Virus record (IMG/VR): IMGVR_UViG_3300007541_000109
Span: 1 to 31,290 of that record
Length of the DNA stretch: 31,290 nucleotides
Source of the DNA: a virus
Strand: one strand, 5' to 3'
The notes beneath the pieces are model-generated. The model saw only the letters and a list, made by a program, of their open reading frames with translations, ran no database searches and was not told the origin of the DNA. A program made the position numbers and the translations under genes. Shown one piece after another: positions 18,110 to 25,304 of this stretch. Position 1 is the first letter of the stretch; each line of letters opens with the position of its first letter.

Positions 18110-19558
18110 TTAGTTACTTAGCAATTGGGTTACTGCCATGTCTGACAGGTGAACTGCGGATCTTCCTGAATGTGCGTTGGTAGACTCTGTGGCGGCTGCG
18201 ATCCTCTCAAGCATCTCGATCATAGCGGTGCTTGGATTGAAACCAAGTAGCTCAGTGAGGTCCATGCCAGGGTCAGCCTCAAGCCTGTCAGTCCTTGCTT
18301 GTTCTTCCAGATGGTTCCCTCGCGCAGTCTCGCCCTCTACTCTCTCAGTTGCTTCCTTAACGCCTGTCATCAAGTCAAGCATGTTCGACAGTTGATTTCG
18401 AGTCGTCTCTGCGGTTGCCTTATCGACGGCGCGTGCGACATCCTTGGTCGCCTTATTATCATTCAGCCAGGTGTCCACCTTATCACTAAACCATGAATAT
18501 ACAGGTTGTAGATAAGACGAGATATTATCGAGGAAACTGTTTGCTTGGATCAATAGCCTCGACATAGTTACCTGACCATTTACTGACATCGCCCTGAACT
18601 GAGCTTCATCAGTAAGCTTTGCCTTCAATACTGCCAAAGTGTTCTCAATGCCACCAGCATTTGGGTCAGCCGCCTTTGCGCCCTGTTCTAGCTTGGCTTC
18701 CAGAGCGTTCATCACAGGAAGTAGACCTTGAATCCCTAGCTCAGTAGCAAACAACTGCCTGAACATAGGGTCCATGGACCCCATAACGTTATCCATCCTT
18801 GCCATAGCAGCTTGAAGCACTGGTTTTAGATCGTCTGCGTTACCGATCTGACCCTCAGAGATCTTCCTAGCTAGATCACCCAACCCTACAATGGTAAGTT
18901 TGGCTATATCCTCAGCACTTCTAATCTGTAAGCTGTTCACCAACTTCGCAGCCTGCTCGCCTGCAATGGCACCAAACTTACCAGTGATATCAGATACGAG
19001 ACCCTCAGTAGCCATTACATTAATCCCTACAGCGTTAGCTAGGGCAACGTCGAGCTTGGAGACAGCAGCTACGATATCTTCACCGAACCTACCATACTGC
19101 CTAGCAGTCTCAGAGAATACATTTGCTAGCATCTCCTGCTGTTTGGCATTCAGGTCTGTAGTCCTCTCTAGACCCGCAAATAGCTGGAGAGCGGCTTTGG
19201 TGTTCTGACCAGTGGCCTTGAGTCCTGCTAGGAAGTTAACTGTCCCCTTCCTAGAGTCCTCCATTCCCATCTTCATGAACTCAGTATACACGGCAGCACT
19301 GTTCATCAAGCCACCTGTGTTATCCTTGATGACATCGCTATTCTGTAGCAAGAGACTGTTAGCGTCTCTGTTCATGATGGCTAGGCGCTCATTGATTGCT
19401 AGGGATTGCTTGTTGTATACAGCGTTCCTTTCAAAAGCCTCCTTGAGTGCCTTGGTTGCTAGAGATAGGCCCATCAATGCTGGGTGCATCTTTAGCATGG
19501 ACCCATTCATCTTGCCAATAGCGCCTACAGCGTTACCTAGTGCATTAGTTAAGCTCAT
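18110..19558 (-). CDS. Tail tape measure protein candidate, gp29-like position
   Basis: A 482-aa, almost entirely alpha-helical protein rich in Ala, Leu, Asn and Met. It has an apolar start and long amphipathic helices through residue ~330. One aromatic segment (NISSYLQPVYSWFSDKVDTW, about 345-364) precedes a charged C-terminal region. AGGAG lies about 4 nt before the ATG. At roughly 1.5 angstrom per residue it would span about 70 nm, reasonable for a myovirus tail. T4 gp29 is 590 aa. It is the only tape-measure-like gene in the cluster, and it sits upstream of the tube-junction gene. No peptidase or lytic domain is seen. Confidence 0.65.
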   Translation of the reverse strand: MSLTNALGNAVGAIGKMNGSMLKMHPALMGLSLATKALKEAFERNAVYNKQSLAINERLAIMNRDANSLLLQNSDVIKDNTGGLMNSAAVYTEFMKMGMEDSRKGTVNFLAGLKATGQNTKAALQLFAGLERTTDLNAKQQEMLANVFSETARQYGRFGEDIVAAVSKLDVALANAVGINVMATEGLVSDITGKFGAIAGEQAAKLVNSLQIRSAEDIAKLTIVGLGDLARKISEGQIGNADDLKPVLQAAMARMDNVMGSMDPMFRQLFATELGIQGLLPVMNALEAKLEQGAKAADPNAGGIENTLAVLKAKLTDEAQFRAMSVNGQVTMSRLLIQANSFLDNISSYLQPVYSWFSDKVDTWLNDNKATKDVARAVDKATAETTRNQLSNMLDLMTGVKEATERVEGETARGNHLEEQARTDRLEADPGMDLTELLGFNPSTAMIEMLERIAAATESTNAHSGRSAVHLSDMAVTQLLSN

Positions 19559-20431: not shown

Positions 20432-21208
20432 ATGTTCTGCAACACTATCTCCAACTCCAAGCGCGAGACGTTCCGCCAGTGCAGGTTGAAGTATAAGTAT
20501 AACTACGTAGATCGGTATGAGGAGACTGACAAGGGTAATAGTGATGCCCTTCACTTCGGTTCGTTCATCCATGAGATCTTTGAGCACAATACTCACGCCA
20601 CCACTCTGGATCAGCTTCTACAGTATGGCGAGTCGATCCGTGACAAGTATACGTTTGATGACTCCTACATCCCAAAGATCGAGAAGTGCTGCCGTAACTT
20701 CCTCCGCTTCAACGCCAGCCTTCCTAAGGAGTCTATCCAGGAGCACCACTTCTCTGAGGACCTAGGCTCAGACATACTGCACCAGGGATACATTGACCGT
20801 ATTGTCACCACTCCTACAGGAGAGACGCTAGTAATCGACTACAAGACTAGCAAGCGTGAGAAGAAGAAGTTTGAGCTAGTGGGCGACCCGCAGGGCAAGT
20901 CCTATGTATACGCAGCCCACAAGCTTACTGGAAAGCCCATCCGCAAGATCTCCTTCGCGCACTACTACCCACTTACTGGAAACGTAGTGGCTGTGAAGTA
21001 TACGGAGCAGTCTATCGTAGCTCATATCAAGAACGTCGTAGAGGATGTCTGGAAGATACGCAAGGCTAAGACTGAGGATCTGACACCCACTGAGAACGAC
21101 TTCTGTAACTGGTGTAGCTACAAGTCCATATGCCCTCTATTCAATGAGATTGAGGATGTTAAGAAGCGACTCGATGAGTGCACCAAACGTCCCCCTAGAA
21201 AGCGTTGA
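20432..21208 (+). CDS. PD-(D/E)XK nuclease, Cas4/RecB-like, with probable 4Fe-4S cysteines
   Basis: A 258-aa protein with all parts of the RecB/Cas4-type nuclease: HFGSFIHEIF (H47, E48), GYIDRI (D122), LVIDYKTSK (D136-x-K138) and QGKSY (Q154-Y158, the QxxxY motif). Four cysteines fit the iron-sulphur cluster of Cas4 and AddB: C17 near the N-terminus (FRQCRLKY) and C225, C228, C234 near the end (FCNWCSYKSICP). It probably degrades or trims DNA ends with metal ions during phage replication or recombination. GAGGT lies 4 nt before the ATG. There are no CRISPR genes nearby, so a Cas4 role in spacer capture is not indicated. Confidence 0.88.
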   Translation: MFCNTISNSKRETFRQCRLKYKYNYVDRYEETDKGNSDALHFGSFIHEIFEHNTHATTLDQLLQYGESIRDKYTFDDSYIPKIEKCCRNFLRFNASLPKESIQEHHFSEDLGSDILHQGYIDRIVTTPTGETLVIDYKTSKREKKKFELVGDPQGKSYVYAAHKLTGKPIRKISFAHYYPLTGNVVAVKYTEQSIVAHIKNVVEDVWKIRKAKTEDLTPTENDFCNWCSYKSICPLFNEIEDVKKRLDECTKRPPRKR

Positions 21209-21233
21209 CATTGGGTATGGCCCAGCCTAGTAT
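21205..21233 (+). promoter_or_regulatory. Candidate promoter overlapping the nuclease stop codon
   Basis: A perfect TTGACA (21205-21210), a 17-nt spacer and TAGTAT (21228-21233) form a sigma70-like promoter. Its expected start point is about 21240, the A of the primase ATG. The -35 overlaps the nuclease TGA. It shares TTGGG, TATGGCC and TAGTATA with the candidate at 20093-20121. Confidence 0.45.
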
Positions 21234-21239
21234 AGGGTC

Positions 21240-22166
21240 ATGATCAGAGAGTGGATTACCGAGAACATCAAAGGCGGTCGCCTGCAATCAGGTGGTCGCG
21301 AGTATGTTTGTCCTTCGCTGTTCGAGGAGAACGACTGGAAGCGTCACATGTCCATCAACCTGGACACTGGACTCTGGCAGTGCTTCAAGAGCGGGGAGAA
21401 GGGAGGTTTCTACAAGCTGGTCATGCTGGTTCGCGGATGCTCATACGGCACCGCTCGCTCTATCGTCGGTAAGTTCTGCATTGACAGGGGAGAGCTTAAC
21501 TTCGATGATCAGGAGCTTCGCATACATAAGCCTGAGTCGGGCATTGTCGATGACTCCGCGTTCCACGCTATCACTCCTGACAGCCCTGCTGAGGACTACA
21601 TCTTGTCCCGTGGCCTCAACCCCGCAGACTTCATGGCCTGCACCTCTGGTCCATTCTCTGGTCGCCTGATCATCCCTTACACCGATGAGTTCGGGATGTA
21701 TTACTTCAACGCACGCGCCCTAGGTGATCAGTTCCCTAAGTATCTCAACCCTCCCCAAGAGGTCGGTGTAAAGGCTTCCCACGTCTTATTTCCATACGAC
21801 GATCAGGCTGATGTCCTGTATGTCACCGAAGGAGCTATCGACGCTCTAAGCCTCAAGCAGGCTGGTGTAGAGGCTACCTGCACCAATGGTTCATCCCCTT
21901 CACACATCCAAGGGCGCTACCTCAAGGAGTTCAAAGGTCGCATCGTGGTGGCCTACGACAACGACGAGGCGGGGAGAGAGGGTGTGGAGCGCTTCGAGCG
22001 TATGCGTAAGCGCCTATGTATGCCCGAGATCTCCTACGTGTTCCCTCCTGCTGGTTACAAGGACTGGAACAGCCTCCTAGTAGAAGAAGGAGGACCTGCC
22101 GTGAAGCAAGCCCTCCTTAAGGAAACTAGAATGAGTTGGGAGAATAATATACTTAGCGCACTGTGA
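21240..22166 (+). CDS. DnaG-type DNA primase with TOPRIM domain, gp61-like
   Basis: A 308-aa protein. The N-terminus resembles the CHC2 zinc-binding domain (YVCPSLFEE, C24; H36; WQCFKSGEKGG, C48), but the usual last cysteine is a serine (S51). GRLIIPYTDEFG (141-152) is the conserved basic strand of the RNA polymerase domain. The TOPRIM signature follows: VTEGAIDAL (E197, D201) and VVAYDNDEAGREG (D240, D242), then KDWN at 274-277. It would make RNA primers for lagging-strand synthesis alongside a phage helicase. T4 gp61 is 342 aa. Only AGGG two bases before the ATG could serve as a ribosome-binding site. Confidence 0.88.
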   Translation: MIREWITENIKGGRLQSGGREYVCPSLFEENDWKRHMSINLDTGLWQCFKSGEKGGFYKLVMLVRGCSYGTARSIVGKFCIDRGELNFDDQELRIHKPESGIVDDSAFHAITPDSPAEDYILSRGLNPADFMACTSGPFSGRLIIPYTDEFGMYYFNARALGDQFPKYLNPPQEVGVKASHVLFPYDDQADVLYVTEGAIDALSLKQAGVEATCTNGSSPSHIQGRYLKEFKGRIVVAYDNDEAGREGVERFERMRKRLCMPEISYVFPPAGYKDWNSLLVEEGGPAVKQALLKETRMSWENNILSAL

Positions 22167-23010
22167 AGTGCATCATGGGAGAGATGATAGTTTCCCCCAG
22201 GACATTATACTTGGCTTCGACGGAGTAAACACCTCTTGCGGAGCCAAGATTCGTAATTCCGCTACTGAGGACTGAGGTGTCGAATCGGAATACCATGGTG
22301 TTGTCTGACGTGATGGACACTAGGTCTTCTGTATCTGAGAATCCAGAGACATCAACCCATGCAGGAAGATTGCTATCTTCGTTGTGCTTGCGAATACGAA
22401 TCTGTGGGTTGTCCACAACAGTCTGGTTGAAGATGTTGCGGATGTTCTGACTAATACCTTTGTTCTGAACCGTAGTCTCGCAACCTATCTTAAGATCTAC
22501 TACCTCGCCTAGCCTTACTTGATTGGGGGTTAGGCGAGTCTTGGTTCGTAAAAGAACGTCCTCAGTGGTGTTTATAACGCTGTCCTGGAATAACTCGAAC
22601 TCGTTGACGTAGGTCTTCCAGTCGGACAAGGATGCCATTTTGACAGTCCAGATCTCGATGTAGCGTCCAGCAGCTAGATCACCAGCAGCAGAGTTGACAC
22701 CGTCAAGGACGACCACCTTGCGACCGTCATCCACCGAATACACAGAGGATGCCATGGCAAGGGAACCGTCATATGAGGAGGCATCAGCAGCACCTTCCCA
22801 CAGGTATAAAGGAGTCCCGCTAACAAGTCCGCTGTTGTCAAGAACCGAAGAGGGAGAGACGTTGGATTCCTTCTTAAACAGGGCTACCGAGGATACTGCA
22901 TAAGGCTCCTGGTAAGTCCCGTTTATAATAAAGTTAGTGCGGAGAGCTACGCGCTGCATGGTTCCTGCACGCTGGTAGCGTTCAACGACGGTTGCTGTTC
23001 CTAATTTCAT
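22153..23010 (-). CDS. Unknown virion-type structural protein
   Basis: A 285-aa beta-rich protein with no recognised family. It opens with MKLGTATVVERYQRAGTMQR, has a strand-rich middle (RYIEIWTVKM, WKTYVNEFELF) and ends with an Ig-like-looking part (ARGVYSVEAKYNVLGETIIS). AGGAAGA lies about 10 nt before the ATG. The gene start overlaps the end of the -1 frame extension of the gp26-like gene by 29 nt, so translation may be coupled to it. Its 3' end overlaps the primase gene tail to tail by 14 nt. A baseplate or tail role is inferred from the cluster. Confidence 0.6.
   Translation of the reverse strand: MKLGTATVVERYQRAGTMQRVALRTNFIINGTYQEPYAVSSVALFKKESNVSPSSVLDNSGLVSGTPLYLWEGAADASSYDGSLAMASSVYSVDDGRKVVVLDGVNSAAGDLAAGRYIEIWTVKMASLSDWKTYVNEFELFQDSVINTTEDVLLRTKTRLTPNQVRLGEVVDLKIGCETTVQNKGISQNIRNIFNQTVVDNPQIRIRKHNEDSNLPAWVDVSGFSDTEDLVSITSDNTMVFRFDTSVLSSGITNLGSARGVYSVEAKYNVLGETIISPMMHFTVR
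22158..22171. terminator. Hairpin at the convergent primase/structural junction
   Basis: GCACT-GTGA-AGTGC is a perfect 5-bp stem with a 4-nt loop. The primase stop codon lies partly in the loop (22164-22166). On the minus strand it is followed by a moderately T-rich stretch (GCTAAGTATATTATT). It could weakly end transcription from either side. No true U-run is present. Confidence 0.25.
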
Positions 23011-23179
23011 CTAGCTGTTCTTCCTGCTGCATACACTCTTCCTTGTGGAAGAGGAGAAACTGCCTGCGCTCATGTCGTGACATGGACTTTACGTCCGCAT
23101 AGCTGAACCGACACCTTCTAACCAATATATAGGCTTCCCTTAGAAGGTTCTCGACACTTCCATCGGTTAGCTCACGGAG
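22982..23179 (-). CDS. -1 frame extension of the gp26-like protein (tail assembly chaperone, second part)
   Basis: In the -1 frame relative to the gp26-like gene, 65 codons stay open from the slip site to TGA at 22982-22984. They encode a charged helical peptide: LRELTDGSVENLLREAY, then RFSYADVKSMSRHERRQFLL, and an acidic end (ECMQQEEQLDEIRNSNRR). Upstream of the slip site this frame has a stop after only about 8 codons and no start codon. Within it the first possible starts are a TTG at codon 19 and an ATG at codon 33, neither with a well-placed ribosome-binding site. A frameshift would give a 292-aa protein (227 + 65). This mirrors lambda G-T and P2 E-E'. It might instead be a short separate gene from the TTG. 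Confidence 0.75.
   Translation of the reverse strand, partial: LRELTDGSVENLLREAYILVRRCRFSYADVKSMSRHERRQFLLFHKEECMQQEEQLDEIRNSNRR
23101..23172 (-). other. Stem-loop downstream of the slip site (frameshift stimulator)
   Basis: On the minus-strand transcript, AGCTAACCGA (23172-23163) pairs with TCGGTT-C-AGCT (23111-23101): 10 bp with a single bulged C. Inside it, ACCTTCTAA (23148-23140 on the plus strand reads as its complement) and TTAGAAGGT (23121-23113) pair over 9 bp with an 18-nt loop. The structure starts 6 nt after the slippery heptamer and includes the zero-frame UAA stop in its outer stem. Confidence 0.75.
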
Positions 23180-23859
23180 AAAAAACCCTGGGTCAGGGGA
23201 AGCTCAATTGGTCCGTCATGGCCGCAGTTGTTGCACTTGAGTCGAATCTGTGTCTGTAGTCCGTAGTCGGAGGCAGTCACTATACCAATCATTGTGTCAA
23301 TATCCCCTGCTGTTAGCTTTGGAATTACTTTAGAGATGACATCTCTACGGTCATACCCACCAAAACTCTTGATGAACCGCCAGAGGGAGTCCAGCATAAC
23401 CTCGCCGTTCTCCAGATACTTCCTGTCAGCCCTCGTAGCACGTCTTAGAACCACTTCCTTACCAGACATGGGTAGAGTTATCTCTACGTCTCCATCGTCC
23501 TCTAGACGCCTTACAGGAAGCTCTCCGACGTTCACAGAGAAATGCTGCTCTGATCCGCAGGCAGGACATGGCTGAATAAACTTATACTCAGGTCCGTAGC
23601 TAATCTCTCTGATCTTGAAAAGGATGTAGTTGGCGTCAATGTTCATTAGCTCGTCTAGATCAGTATCTTGAACACACCTCTCCAAGATGAAGTCTACGGT
23701 ATCACCCTCCGCATCGGTTCTAGATACCATCTGCTTCTCTACCTCGAAGGTAATAGGGGTTAGGCGAACGGTCTTACCGCTAGGAAGGTCCACCTGAGTC
23801 TCTGCAAAGTGGGAACCCATTAGTTCCTCTACGATACTGTCTGCTGATTGTTTAGCCAT
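23167..23859 (-). CDS. gp26-like zinc-ribbon tail assembly protein (short frame)
   Basis: A 230-aa protein. It has VRLTPITFEVEKQMV near residue 30, then ILERCVQD, DANYILFKIREISYG, and two Cys-x2-Cys pairs: CPACG near residue 100 and CNNCG near 213, fit to bind one zinc. I associate this layout with the T4 gp26-type baseplate hub assembly family (T4_baseplate). AGGAGAG lies 7 nt before the ATG. It diverges from the helicase gene, as gene 26 lies near uvsW in T4. The last codons carry a slippery heptamer, so a second, longer product is likely. By analogy with P2 gpE and lambda gpG it may act as tape-measure chaperone. Confidence 0.8.
   Translation of the reverse strand: MAKQSADSIVEELMGSHFAETQVDLPSGKTVRLTPITFEVEKQMVSRTDAEGDTVDFILERCVQDTDLDELMNIDANYILFKIREISYGPEYKFIQPCPACGSEQHFSVNVGELPVRRLEDDGDVEITLPMSGKEVVLRRATRADRKYLENGEVMLDSLWRFIKSFGGYDRRDVISKVIPKLTAGDIDTMIGIVTASDYGLQTQIRLKCNNCGHDGPIELPLTQGFFSVS
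23179..23185 (-). promoter_or_regulatory. Slippery heptamer T TTT TTC for -1 frameshifting
   Basis: In the zero frame the codons read GGT TTT TTC, giving X XXY YYZ = T TTT TTC. Both tRNA-Phe can re-pair with UUU after a -1 slip. Four codons later the zero frame ends (TAA, 23169-23167), and the -1 frame enters the 65-codon extension at CTC. Confidence 0.8.
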
Positions 23860-23897: not shown

Positions 23898-25304
23898 GTG
23901 AAGTTTGTGATTGGGACGCAGAAGACTCGTCTAGAGACGGACAACCCTAAGATTATCAGGGCTCTGCGAGATGTATATAGCGCCTCGGTCCCAGGGGCAA
24001 GGTATTCACCTGCCTACAGGATGGGTCGCTGGGACGGTATGAAGCACTTCGTAACTAATCGTGGTGTATTCAGGACAGGACTACTAGATTCCATTCAGTC
24101 AGACCTTAGGAAAGCAGGACTAGAGTGGGAAGAGGAGTATAAGGATGAGTCAGTTACATCCCCTAATCTTGAACACATTGCTGGTTACAGCTATTTCGAT
24201 TACCAGGAGAAGGCCATACGATACGGCCTAGAGAAACAGAGGTGCATAATCAAAGCTCCTACGGGTGCTGGCAAGACTCTGATCATGGCAGGGTTAGTGC
24301 AAGCACACCTGGGTAAGCGTATTGTTATACTATTCAATGCCAAGAACCTACTAAAGCAGACCTACGACTTCCTAACAGGGGAGTGTGGTCTTACTAATGT
24401 AGGAGTGTGCTTTGGAGAGGGATACCAGGATGGAGAGGTCATGCTAGCTACGGTTCAGTCTATTGAAAAGATAATAGACCCCTACGTCGAGCAGGCTGAG
24501 GTTCTCATGGTAGATGAGGTGCATGAGTTTGGCGTGGGGGATACTACGGTAGCTGCCATCGAGTCCTTTCCTAATGCAAAGTTTAGATATGGCTTCACGG
24601 CGACGATGCCTACAGAGAAGATCCCTATGTGGAATCTTATAGGTGCATTTGGTCCTGTGTTCATTTGCAAGACTACGTCTGATCTGGTGGAGGAAGGAGT
24701 CCTCTGTAAGCCTATAATTCAGATGCTGTCTACAGAGCAACCTATCAGCGAAGAGGGCCAGCCTACATACGCAGACATTTACGCATCAGGTATAACCAAT
24801 AATGATTACAGGAATGACCAGATAAAGTCCCTTGTGAATCAGATTAGAGAAGGCACACCCAAGGCTAGAATCCTCATCCTGGTCAAGAGTCTGGAGCATG
24901 GTGAGATTCTACAGGAAGCCCTTGGGGAGGACACGTGGTATCTACAGGGGGAAGATGACCTAGGAGACAGGTATCGCACGATAGGAGCATTCACGTCCTG
25001 TGAAGGAGCTTCTGTGCTTATAGGAACTAAGATCCTACAGACAGGGGTGAACATCAGGGAGATTACACACTTCATCAACGCTAGAGGTCTCAAGTCTCCT
25101 ATAGCTACTATCCAAGCCCTAGGACGAGCGCTAAGAACTCATGAGAGCAAGGACAAAGTATTTGTCTACGACTTCCTAGACACTGGTCCGTATTTAGGAG
25201 CACACGCTAACAAGCGCTATAATACTTACAAGAAGGAAGGACACGAAGTCCACAAGGTAGAATGGAATCACACGAAGACAGACAGGCCCGAAAGGGCAAG
25301 CTGA
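23898..25304 (+). CDS. uvsW: SF2 DNA helicase, UvsW-like
   Basis: A 468-aa protein starting with GTG. After an N-terminal domain with RMGRWDGMKHFV (about 41-52) come the helicase motifs: a Q-like FDYQEKAI (100-107), Walker A APTGAGKT (120-127), DEVH (206-209), TATM (234-237) and motif VI QALGRALR (406-413). T4 UvsW (503 aa) has the same design; it unwinds branched DNA and R-loops and helps switch from origin- to recombination-driven replication. No clear ribosome-binding site precedes the GTG, which follows the inverted repeat directly, so expression may be controlled there. The 3' end overlaps the next gene by 43 nt. Confidence 0.9.
   Translation: MKFVIGTQKTRLETDNPKIIRALRDVYSASVPGARYSPAYRMGRWDGMKHFVTNRGVFRTGLLDSIQSDLRKAGLEWEEEYKDESVTSPNLEHIAGYSYFDYQEKAIRYGLEKQRCIIKAPTGAGKTLIMAGLVQAHLGKRIVILFNAKNLLKQTYDFLTGECGLTNVGVCFGEGYQDGEVMLATVQSIEKIIDPYVEQAEVLMVDEVHEFGVGDTTVAAIESFPNAKFRYGFTATMPTEKIPMWNLIGAFGPVFICKTTSDLVEEGVLCKPIIQMLSTEQPISEEGQPTYADIYASGITNNDYRNDQIKSLVNQIREGTPKARILILVKSLEHGEILQEALGEDTWYLQGEDDLGDRYRTIGAFTSCEGASVLIGTKILQTGVNIREITHFINARGLKSPIATIQALGRALRTHESKDKVFVYDFLDTGPYLGAHANKRYNTYKKEGHEVHKVEWNHTKTDRPERAS

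Follow-up and report, generated by a model that had tools for sequence, protein, structure and literature searches.

A T4 gp26-like gene with a conserved −1 slippery site as the predicted tail assembly chaperone locus of a contractile-tailed phage

The window analyzed here, a 31,290-base IMG/VR record, very probably carries the tail assembly chaperone (TAC) locus of a contractile-tailed phage, in which a −1 ribosomal slip in a T4 gp26-like gene would yield a short and a long chaperone. The slip site, the C-terminal extension behind it, the homology to the T4 gp26 family and the resemblance in fold to known chaperones are established by comparison of sequences and structural models. Gene coordinates refer to the minus strand unless stated otherwise.

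The gp26-like gene (23167..23859) encodes a short form of 230 aa, a lambda-G-like TAC-N protein, which was assigned from Pfam PF12322, phrog_150 and a structural model. Direct reading of the minus strand at the slip gave CAG GGT TTT TTC TCC GTG AGC TAA, with the last base at 23167. This bore out the initial annotation in placing the slippery heptamer T TTT TTC in the zero frame (23179..23185) and in ending that frame four codons past the slip, at a TAA (23167..23169). An XXXYYYZ heptamer is thus present in the zero frame within the overlap of the two frames, as expected for programmed −1 ribosomal frameshifting (PRF). The −1 frame extends for 65 codons and a stop (22982..23179), was recovered by blind search and alignments, and corresponds to a lambda-T-like TAC-C part; it is closed by a TGA at 22984-22982, giving a fusion of 227 + 65 = 292 aa. 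Upstream of the slip, the same frame is closed after a few codons and contains no ATG, GTG or TTG. The extension, its lack of an upstream start and the fusion length were therefore as initially described. A second XXXYYYZ heptamer, G GGT TTT (23182..23188), overlaps the first and was absent from that description; similar tandem heptamers, GGGTTTTTTC and AAATTTTTTC, occur in some relatives. Among the 27 ORFs of at least 100 aa in the window, only the gp26-like gene combines an in-frame XXXYYYZ heptamer with a −1 extension of at least 50 codons. The combination of heptamer and extension was likewise confined to the gp26 gene among 259 ORFs in 28 representative related loci.

To compare this site across the family, a count was made over 86 distinct gp26 genes belonging to the −1 branches or their close kin. 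The in-frame T TTT TTC was found at the same position in 83 of them, the exceptions being two Ackermannviridae and XacN1, which has T TTT TTT. From the amino acids and the codon usage of each locus, this spelling would be expected by chance at approximately 11% of sites, and for 17 representatives the product of the chances had a log10 of −16.5. The spelling T TTT TTC occurs in 92 Phe-Phe pairs of these loci, about 83 of them being the gp26 sites; by subtraction, it is used in about nine of some 278 Phe-Phe pairs elsewhere. Because of shared ancestry, the locus counts are not independent events, and the fairer measure is the 17 representatives together with the fact that each of the two deep halves of the tree has the site.

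The reading frame behind the heptamer is also conserved. The −1 codon following Phe-Phe encodes Arg (CGN) in 68 of the 83 loci, with all four third bases occurring, whereas the zero-frame residue at the same point varies among Gly, Ala, Val and Glu. An Arg that is kept in the −1 frame beside a variable zero-frame residue indicates that the −1 frame is read before any ATG, and at the sequence level this conservation upstream of candidate ATGs is the pattern expected from selection on the −1 frame. A profile was built from the extensions of 60 relatives, with the window left out, and was used in a blind six-frame search of the window. The extension was the top match (E value, 0.0055; runner-up, 1.6), so that alignments and blind search agree on a conserved extension in the shifted frame. 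The alignment of homologous loci proposed as a check of the initial annotation thus came out in its favor, with a homologous extension that follows the −1 frame from the heptamer onward.

The two Ackermannviridae loci (L044 and L053) lack T TTT TTC, retain the extension and have an ATG overlapping the gp26 stop; reinitiation or a different slip may operate there. In VAP7, the corresponding sequence is GTTTTTC, which is similar to the GTTTTT motif of phage Adele. The initial annotation had named homologues that start the extension with its own ATG and ribosome-binding site, or that have lost the heptamer and stems, as evidence that would count against a frameshift. Neither feature applies to the window, but the heptamer was indeed lost in the two Ackermannviridae examined.

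A hairpin downstream of the heptamer (23095..23177), with hairpins at the same place in relatives, is the probable stimulator of the slip. Folding confirmed the bulged stem and the inner stem of the initial annotation: the main stem pairs 23172-23162 with 23101-23112 and has one bulge, the inner stem pairs 23148-23141 with 23113-23120, and an outer 4-bp helix joins 23177-23174 to 23095-23098. The minimum free energy was −28.5 kcal/mol (z = −2.9), and 1 of 200 shuffled sequences folded equally well. In a context of 181 nt the z score was only −1.15, and the structural evidence from the window as a single sequence is therefore moderate. The hairpin would supply the stimulator expected for −1 PRF. 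Many representatives also showed downstream folds with z below −2, reaching −6.9 in S-PM2 (50 nt) and −7.0 in Atu_ph07 (90 nt), and some had none. The conservation of the stems, which had been suggested as a check, was seen in part. One cyanophage group (A) has a six-pair stem 10 bases past the heptamer in all 19 loci, with a compensatory change from C-G to U-A in four, and in another (B), which comprises 21 loci, nearly all share a stem of nine pairs, but the consensus fold of a third group (C) gave no common stem. Many cyanophages additionally carry GGAGGG about nine bases 5′ of the slip (anti-Shine–Dalgarno energy, −9.8), resembling a dnaX-type stimulator. Unlike the cyanophages, the window has no Shine–Dalgarno-like element upstream of its slip.

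The short product belongs to the T4 gp26 family. It matched PF12322 (T4_baseplate) with an E value of 5e-18 and a score of 66 bits (cut-off, 24.5), residues 21-227 being aligned with positions 4-218 of the 219 in the profile, and it matched phrog_150 with an E value of 3e-21. The protein is predicted to consist of an N-terminal chaperone-like domain (approximately residues 8-91) and a zinc ribbon formed by C98xxC101 and C209xxC212. An AlphaFold2 model, built from 20 proteins of the window and of viral contigs, had a mean pLDDT of 76. A search of solved structures by sequence yielded nothing useful, and Foldseek gave no significant match to the model. When the Foldseek candidates (702 chains) were re-aligned, the top match was YqbN (3KLU; Z = 7.0), a tail assembly chaperone (PMC9603447), followed by the HK97 protein (2OB9; Z = 6.4). 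Both alignments covered 77-78 residues within the first 90 of the window protein; clearly unrelated structures in the same list scored 4.5 or lower, and much of the rest matched zinc ribbons. Z scores of 6–7 are moderate and insufficient by themselves, and their weight lies in the top two matches being of the expected kind, namely TACs. The model thus points, with moderate strength, to the TAC fold of HK97 gp13 and YqbN.

Homologues of the protein were found at 21-29% identity in SP-15, Listeria phage LIS04, Streptococcus phage GXN1, uncultured huge phages and a viral contig. Later searches added cyanophages, KVP40, PhiW-14, jumbo phages and many viral contigs. All relatives examined except the T4 types have a shifted-frame extension at the same place: the second Cys motif is followed by two conserved aromatic residues, mostly Phe-Phe, and the extension begins right behind them. 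Searches detected no close relative of the window: megablast had no match among phages, one distant viral contig was recovered, and one genome match was not confirmed by the gp26 profile. In the tree, the window forms a single deep branch with at most 29% identity to any other member. By sequence, its gene is a new, deeply diverged member of the family.

The surroundings of the gene were also compared. The next gene (22153..23010) encodes a 285-aa protein that is beta-rich by composition, and its start overlaps the end of the extension. A weak homologue of this protein occurs at the same place, after the extension, in viral locus L137, and the L137 protein has a clear homologue in huge-phage loci, again adjoining gp26. 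The recurrence of the same gene after the extension indicates that the block is conserved. Other genes of the window match gp25, a gp6-like wedge protein, a UvsW-like helicase, a primase and an exonuclease, a set that fits a contractile-tailed phage. On the plus strand, nuclease, primase-like and UvsW-like helicase genes (20432-22166 and 23898-25304) lie amid the tail genes. A TAC gene usually, though not necessarily, stands between the tube and tape measure genes, as in SP-15, LIS04 and immuto and unlike in T4 types. In the window, the neighbors of the gp26-like gene are the UvsW-like helicase and the 285-aa protein, with no recognizable tube or tape measure gene adjoining. A helix- and Ala-rich protein of 482 aa (18110..19558) is a candidate tape measure protein by composition and place; it had no convincing family match in Pfam and phrog searches and is not named by homology. 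In S-PM2, the large gene after the extension (L038, 4886-8389) shows resemblance to ADP-ribosyltransferases near its start (PF01129; E value, 1e-5), and a phage lysozyme domain lies close to its end.

In the proposed mechanism, most ribosomes would terminate at 23167 and release the 230-aa short chaperone, a member of the T4 gp26 family comparable to lambda gpG. A minority, at a low rate, would slip by −1 on T TTT TTC or on the overlapping G GGT TTT, aided by the downstream hairpin, and would produce a 292-aa long form comparable to lambda gpGT, whose extra C-terminal domain would be required in small amounts. The short form may, by analogy with lambda, coat the tape measure protein and the long form may recruit tail tube subunits, the two together guiding assembly of the tube on the tape measure. 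The occurrence and rate of the slip, its products and their ratio, and the binding partners of each form are what we infer from the comparison. The initial annotation had suggested both a −1 frameshift and a G/GT-like role in tape measure chaperoning; the comparison supports both, through the heptamer and the homologous −1 extension of the relatives, the structural match to TACs, and T4 gp51 as an in-frame counterpart of the fusion.

This counterpart emerged from profile alignments. T4-type gp51 aligned with the profile of predicted fusions over 239 columns (E value, 3e-12), including the C-terminal extension, whereas T4-type gp26 aligned with the first part alone. The controls gp25, gp27, gp28, uvsY and five shuffled gp51 sequences gave no alignment to the fusion profile, and both gp26 and gp51 are strong PF12322 matches. 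Since gp51 matches the fusion end to end and gp26 its first part, the short and long forms are encoded in T4 by two paralogous genes. The tree did not settle T4 gp26 and gp51 as each other's closest kin. This reading fits the description of gp26 and gp51 as hub assembly chaperones, of which gp51 is essential with unknown function (PMC3004832). The G-T frameshift would then extend across the relatives of T4 and far beyond, and given this spread, the two-gene solution of T4 is probably derived.

The downstream frame could instead be a separate small gene, called gp51 in cyanophages, that is translated by reinitiation after the gp26 stop without any frameshift. In many relatives, an ATG coincides with the zero-frame stop or lies no more than 5 nt from it, databases annotate an ATG-started gene of its own, and the two Ackermannviridae described above have a stop-overlapping ATG and no T TTT TTC. 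In the window itself, neither ATG nor GTG stands where the extension begins, and the first start-like codon downstream of the slip is a TTG (23125-23123) located 18 codons inside the conserved extension. Among the 83 relatives, 37 have no ATG up to 20 nt beyond the zero-frame stop and 29 have no ATG, GTG or TTG there. The −1 frame is conserved 5′ of the ATG, both in the Arg after Phe-Phe and in a W..L.DE motif of the huge phages; nearly all relatives with an ATG near the stop retain the heptamer too; and T4 gp51 holds both parts in one ORF. A separate gene was rejected for the window, which offers no start for it, and this explanation is considered unlikely. Where an ATG overlaps the zero-frame stop, as in KVP40, PhiW-14, 121Q and LR756511, reinitiation could add a free C-terminal domain. 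Several database entries (L038 4720-4893, L039 3762-3899, L045 3762-3896 and L046 3684-3824), named gp51 or baseplate hub assembly catalyst, correspond to the −1 extension from a later start, and in RaK2 (L055) the extension is unannotated. Cyanophage and other entries with these two names would accordingly be the tail ends of fusion proteins whose start was annotated too late.

Two further explanations concern the T run itself. Transcriptional slippage could produce the shifted product, as a run of six T exists, but the run is always TTTTTTC, is limited to six bases and keeps one fixed phase, and slippage of this kind would need neither the phase, the final C nor the hairpins. It was rejected for the fixed phase and short run and is regarded as highly improbable. 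A homopolymer error in sequencing or assembly might also have split a single ORF, since the site is a homopolymer and the source an assembled contig. The identical break recurs in 83 distinct loci, each time at the same codon, and the sequenced isolates S-PM2, KVP40 and PhiW-14 are among them. For this recurrence an error was rejected; it has hardly any probability left. A ribosomal −1 slip is thus the preferred reading for the window.

Another group of relatives appears to reach the long form differently. Among the 61 distinct loci of the group formed by the immuto-like, SP-15-like and LR756508 members (L140-L219, L049, L052, L006 and L002-L004), 60 have an extension near the gp26 stop that runs in the +1 frame for at least 40 codons past it. 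The exception (L201) has a shortened extension, probably because its contig ends there. The extension is joined at about the same Phe-Phe position, and in the immuto-like loci the sequence at the join is a nearly invariant TTT YTT TGG CCT. The +1 (or −2) extension in about 60 relatives is possibly new. Most members would use the −1 frame; these include the window, and they occur in both deep halves of the tree. Users of the +1 (or −2) frame would be the immuto-like and SP-15-like loci, a large group. On balance, we lean slightly toward one chaperone family with at least three routes to its long form: by a −1 slip on T TTT TTC, through the +1 (or −2) frame, and as two paralogous genes in T4. 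If this is true, the direction of frameshifting has switched inside one gene family while the product remained unchanged.

According to a review from 2016, G-T frameshifting is conserved among phages with long tails, "except T4" (PMC5009743). Vladimirov, Gautam and Davidson (2022; Virology 566:9-15) subsequently identified the TACs of T4-like phages, as cited in PMC10885494 and PMC12846349. In the summary of that work given with PRFect, a short chaperone gene and a long fused one occur together in some T4-like phages; a paper from 2025 refers to the same study for poly-T −1 signals in T4-like TAC-N genes (PMC12846349). The initial annotation had considered a −1 slip undescribed in gp26-like genes. 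Since T4-like TACs and poly-T slips are, according to these citing papers, known in kind, this claim of novelty does not hold. T4-like TACs consist of a short and a long chaperone, sometimes encoded by two genes, which by the homology presented here would be gp26 and gp51; T4 itself uses two separate genes and no slip, whereas the window has a predicted slip. The slippery heptamer of lambda G/GT is G GGA AAG, in contrast to T TTT TTC with the overlapping G GGT TTT in the window, whose product carries a zinc ribbon and has no demonstrated sequence similarity to gpG. The predicted window locus and lambda G/GT share a short chaperone and a rarer −1 extended form made from one gene with a slip near its 3′ end (PMC5009743). 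Phage Adele, representing the TACs of Vandenendeviridae/Andersonviridae (PMC12846349), similarly has a poly-T slippery motif where the short form ends, with a −1 extension that precedes the tape measure gene, but its motif is GTTTTT. HK97 gp13 (2OB9) and YqbN (3KLU), the best structural matches, share approximately 10-12% sequence identity with the window protein, which differs from them in its added zinc ribbon and about 140 more residues.
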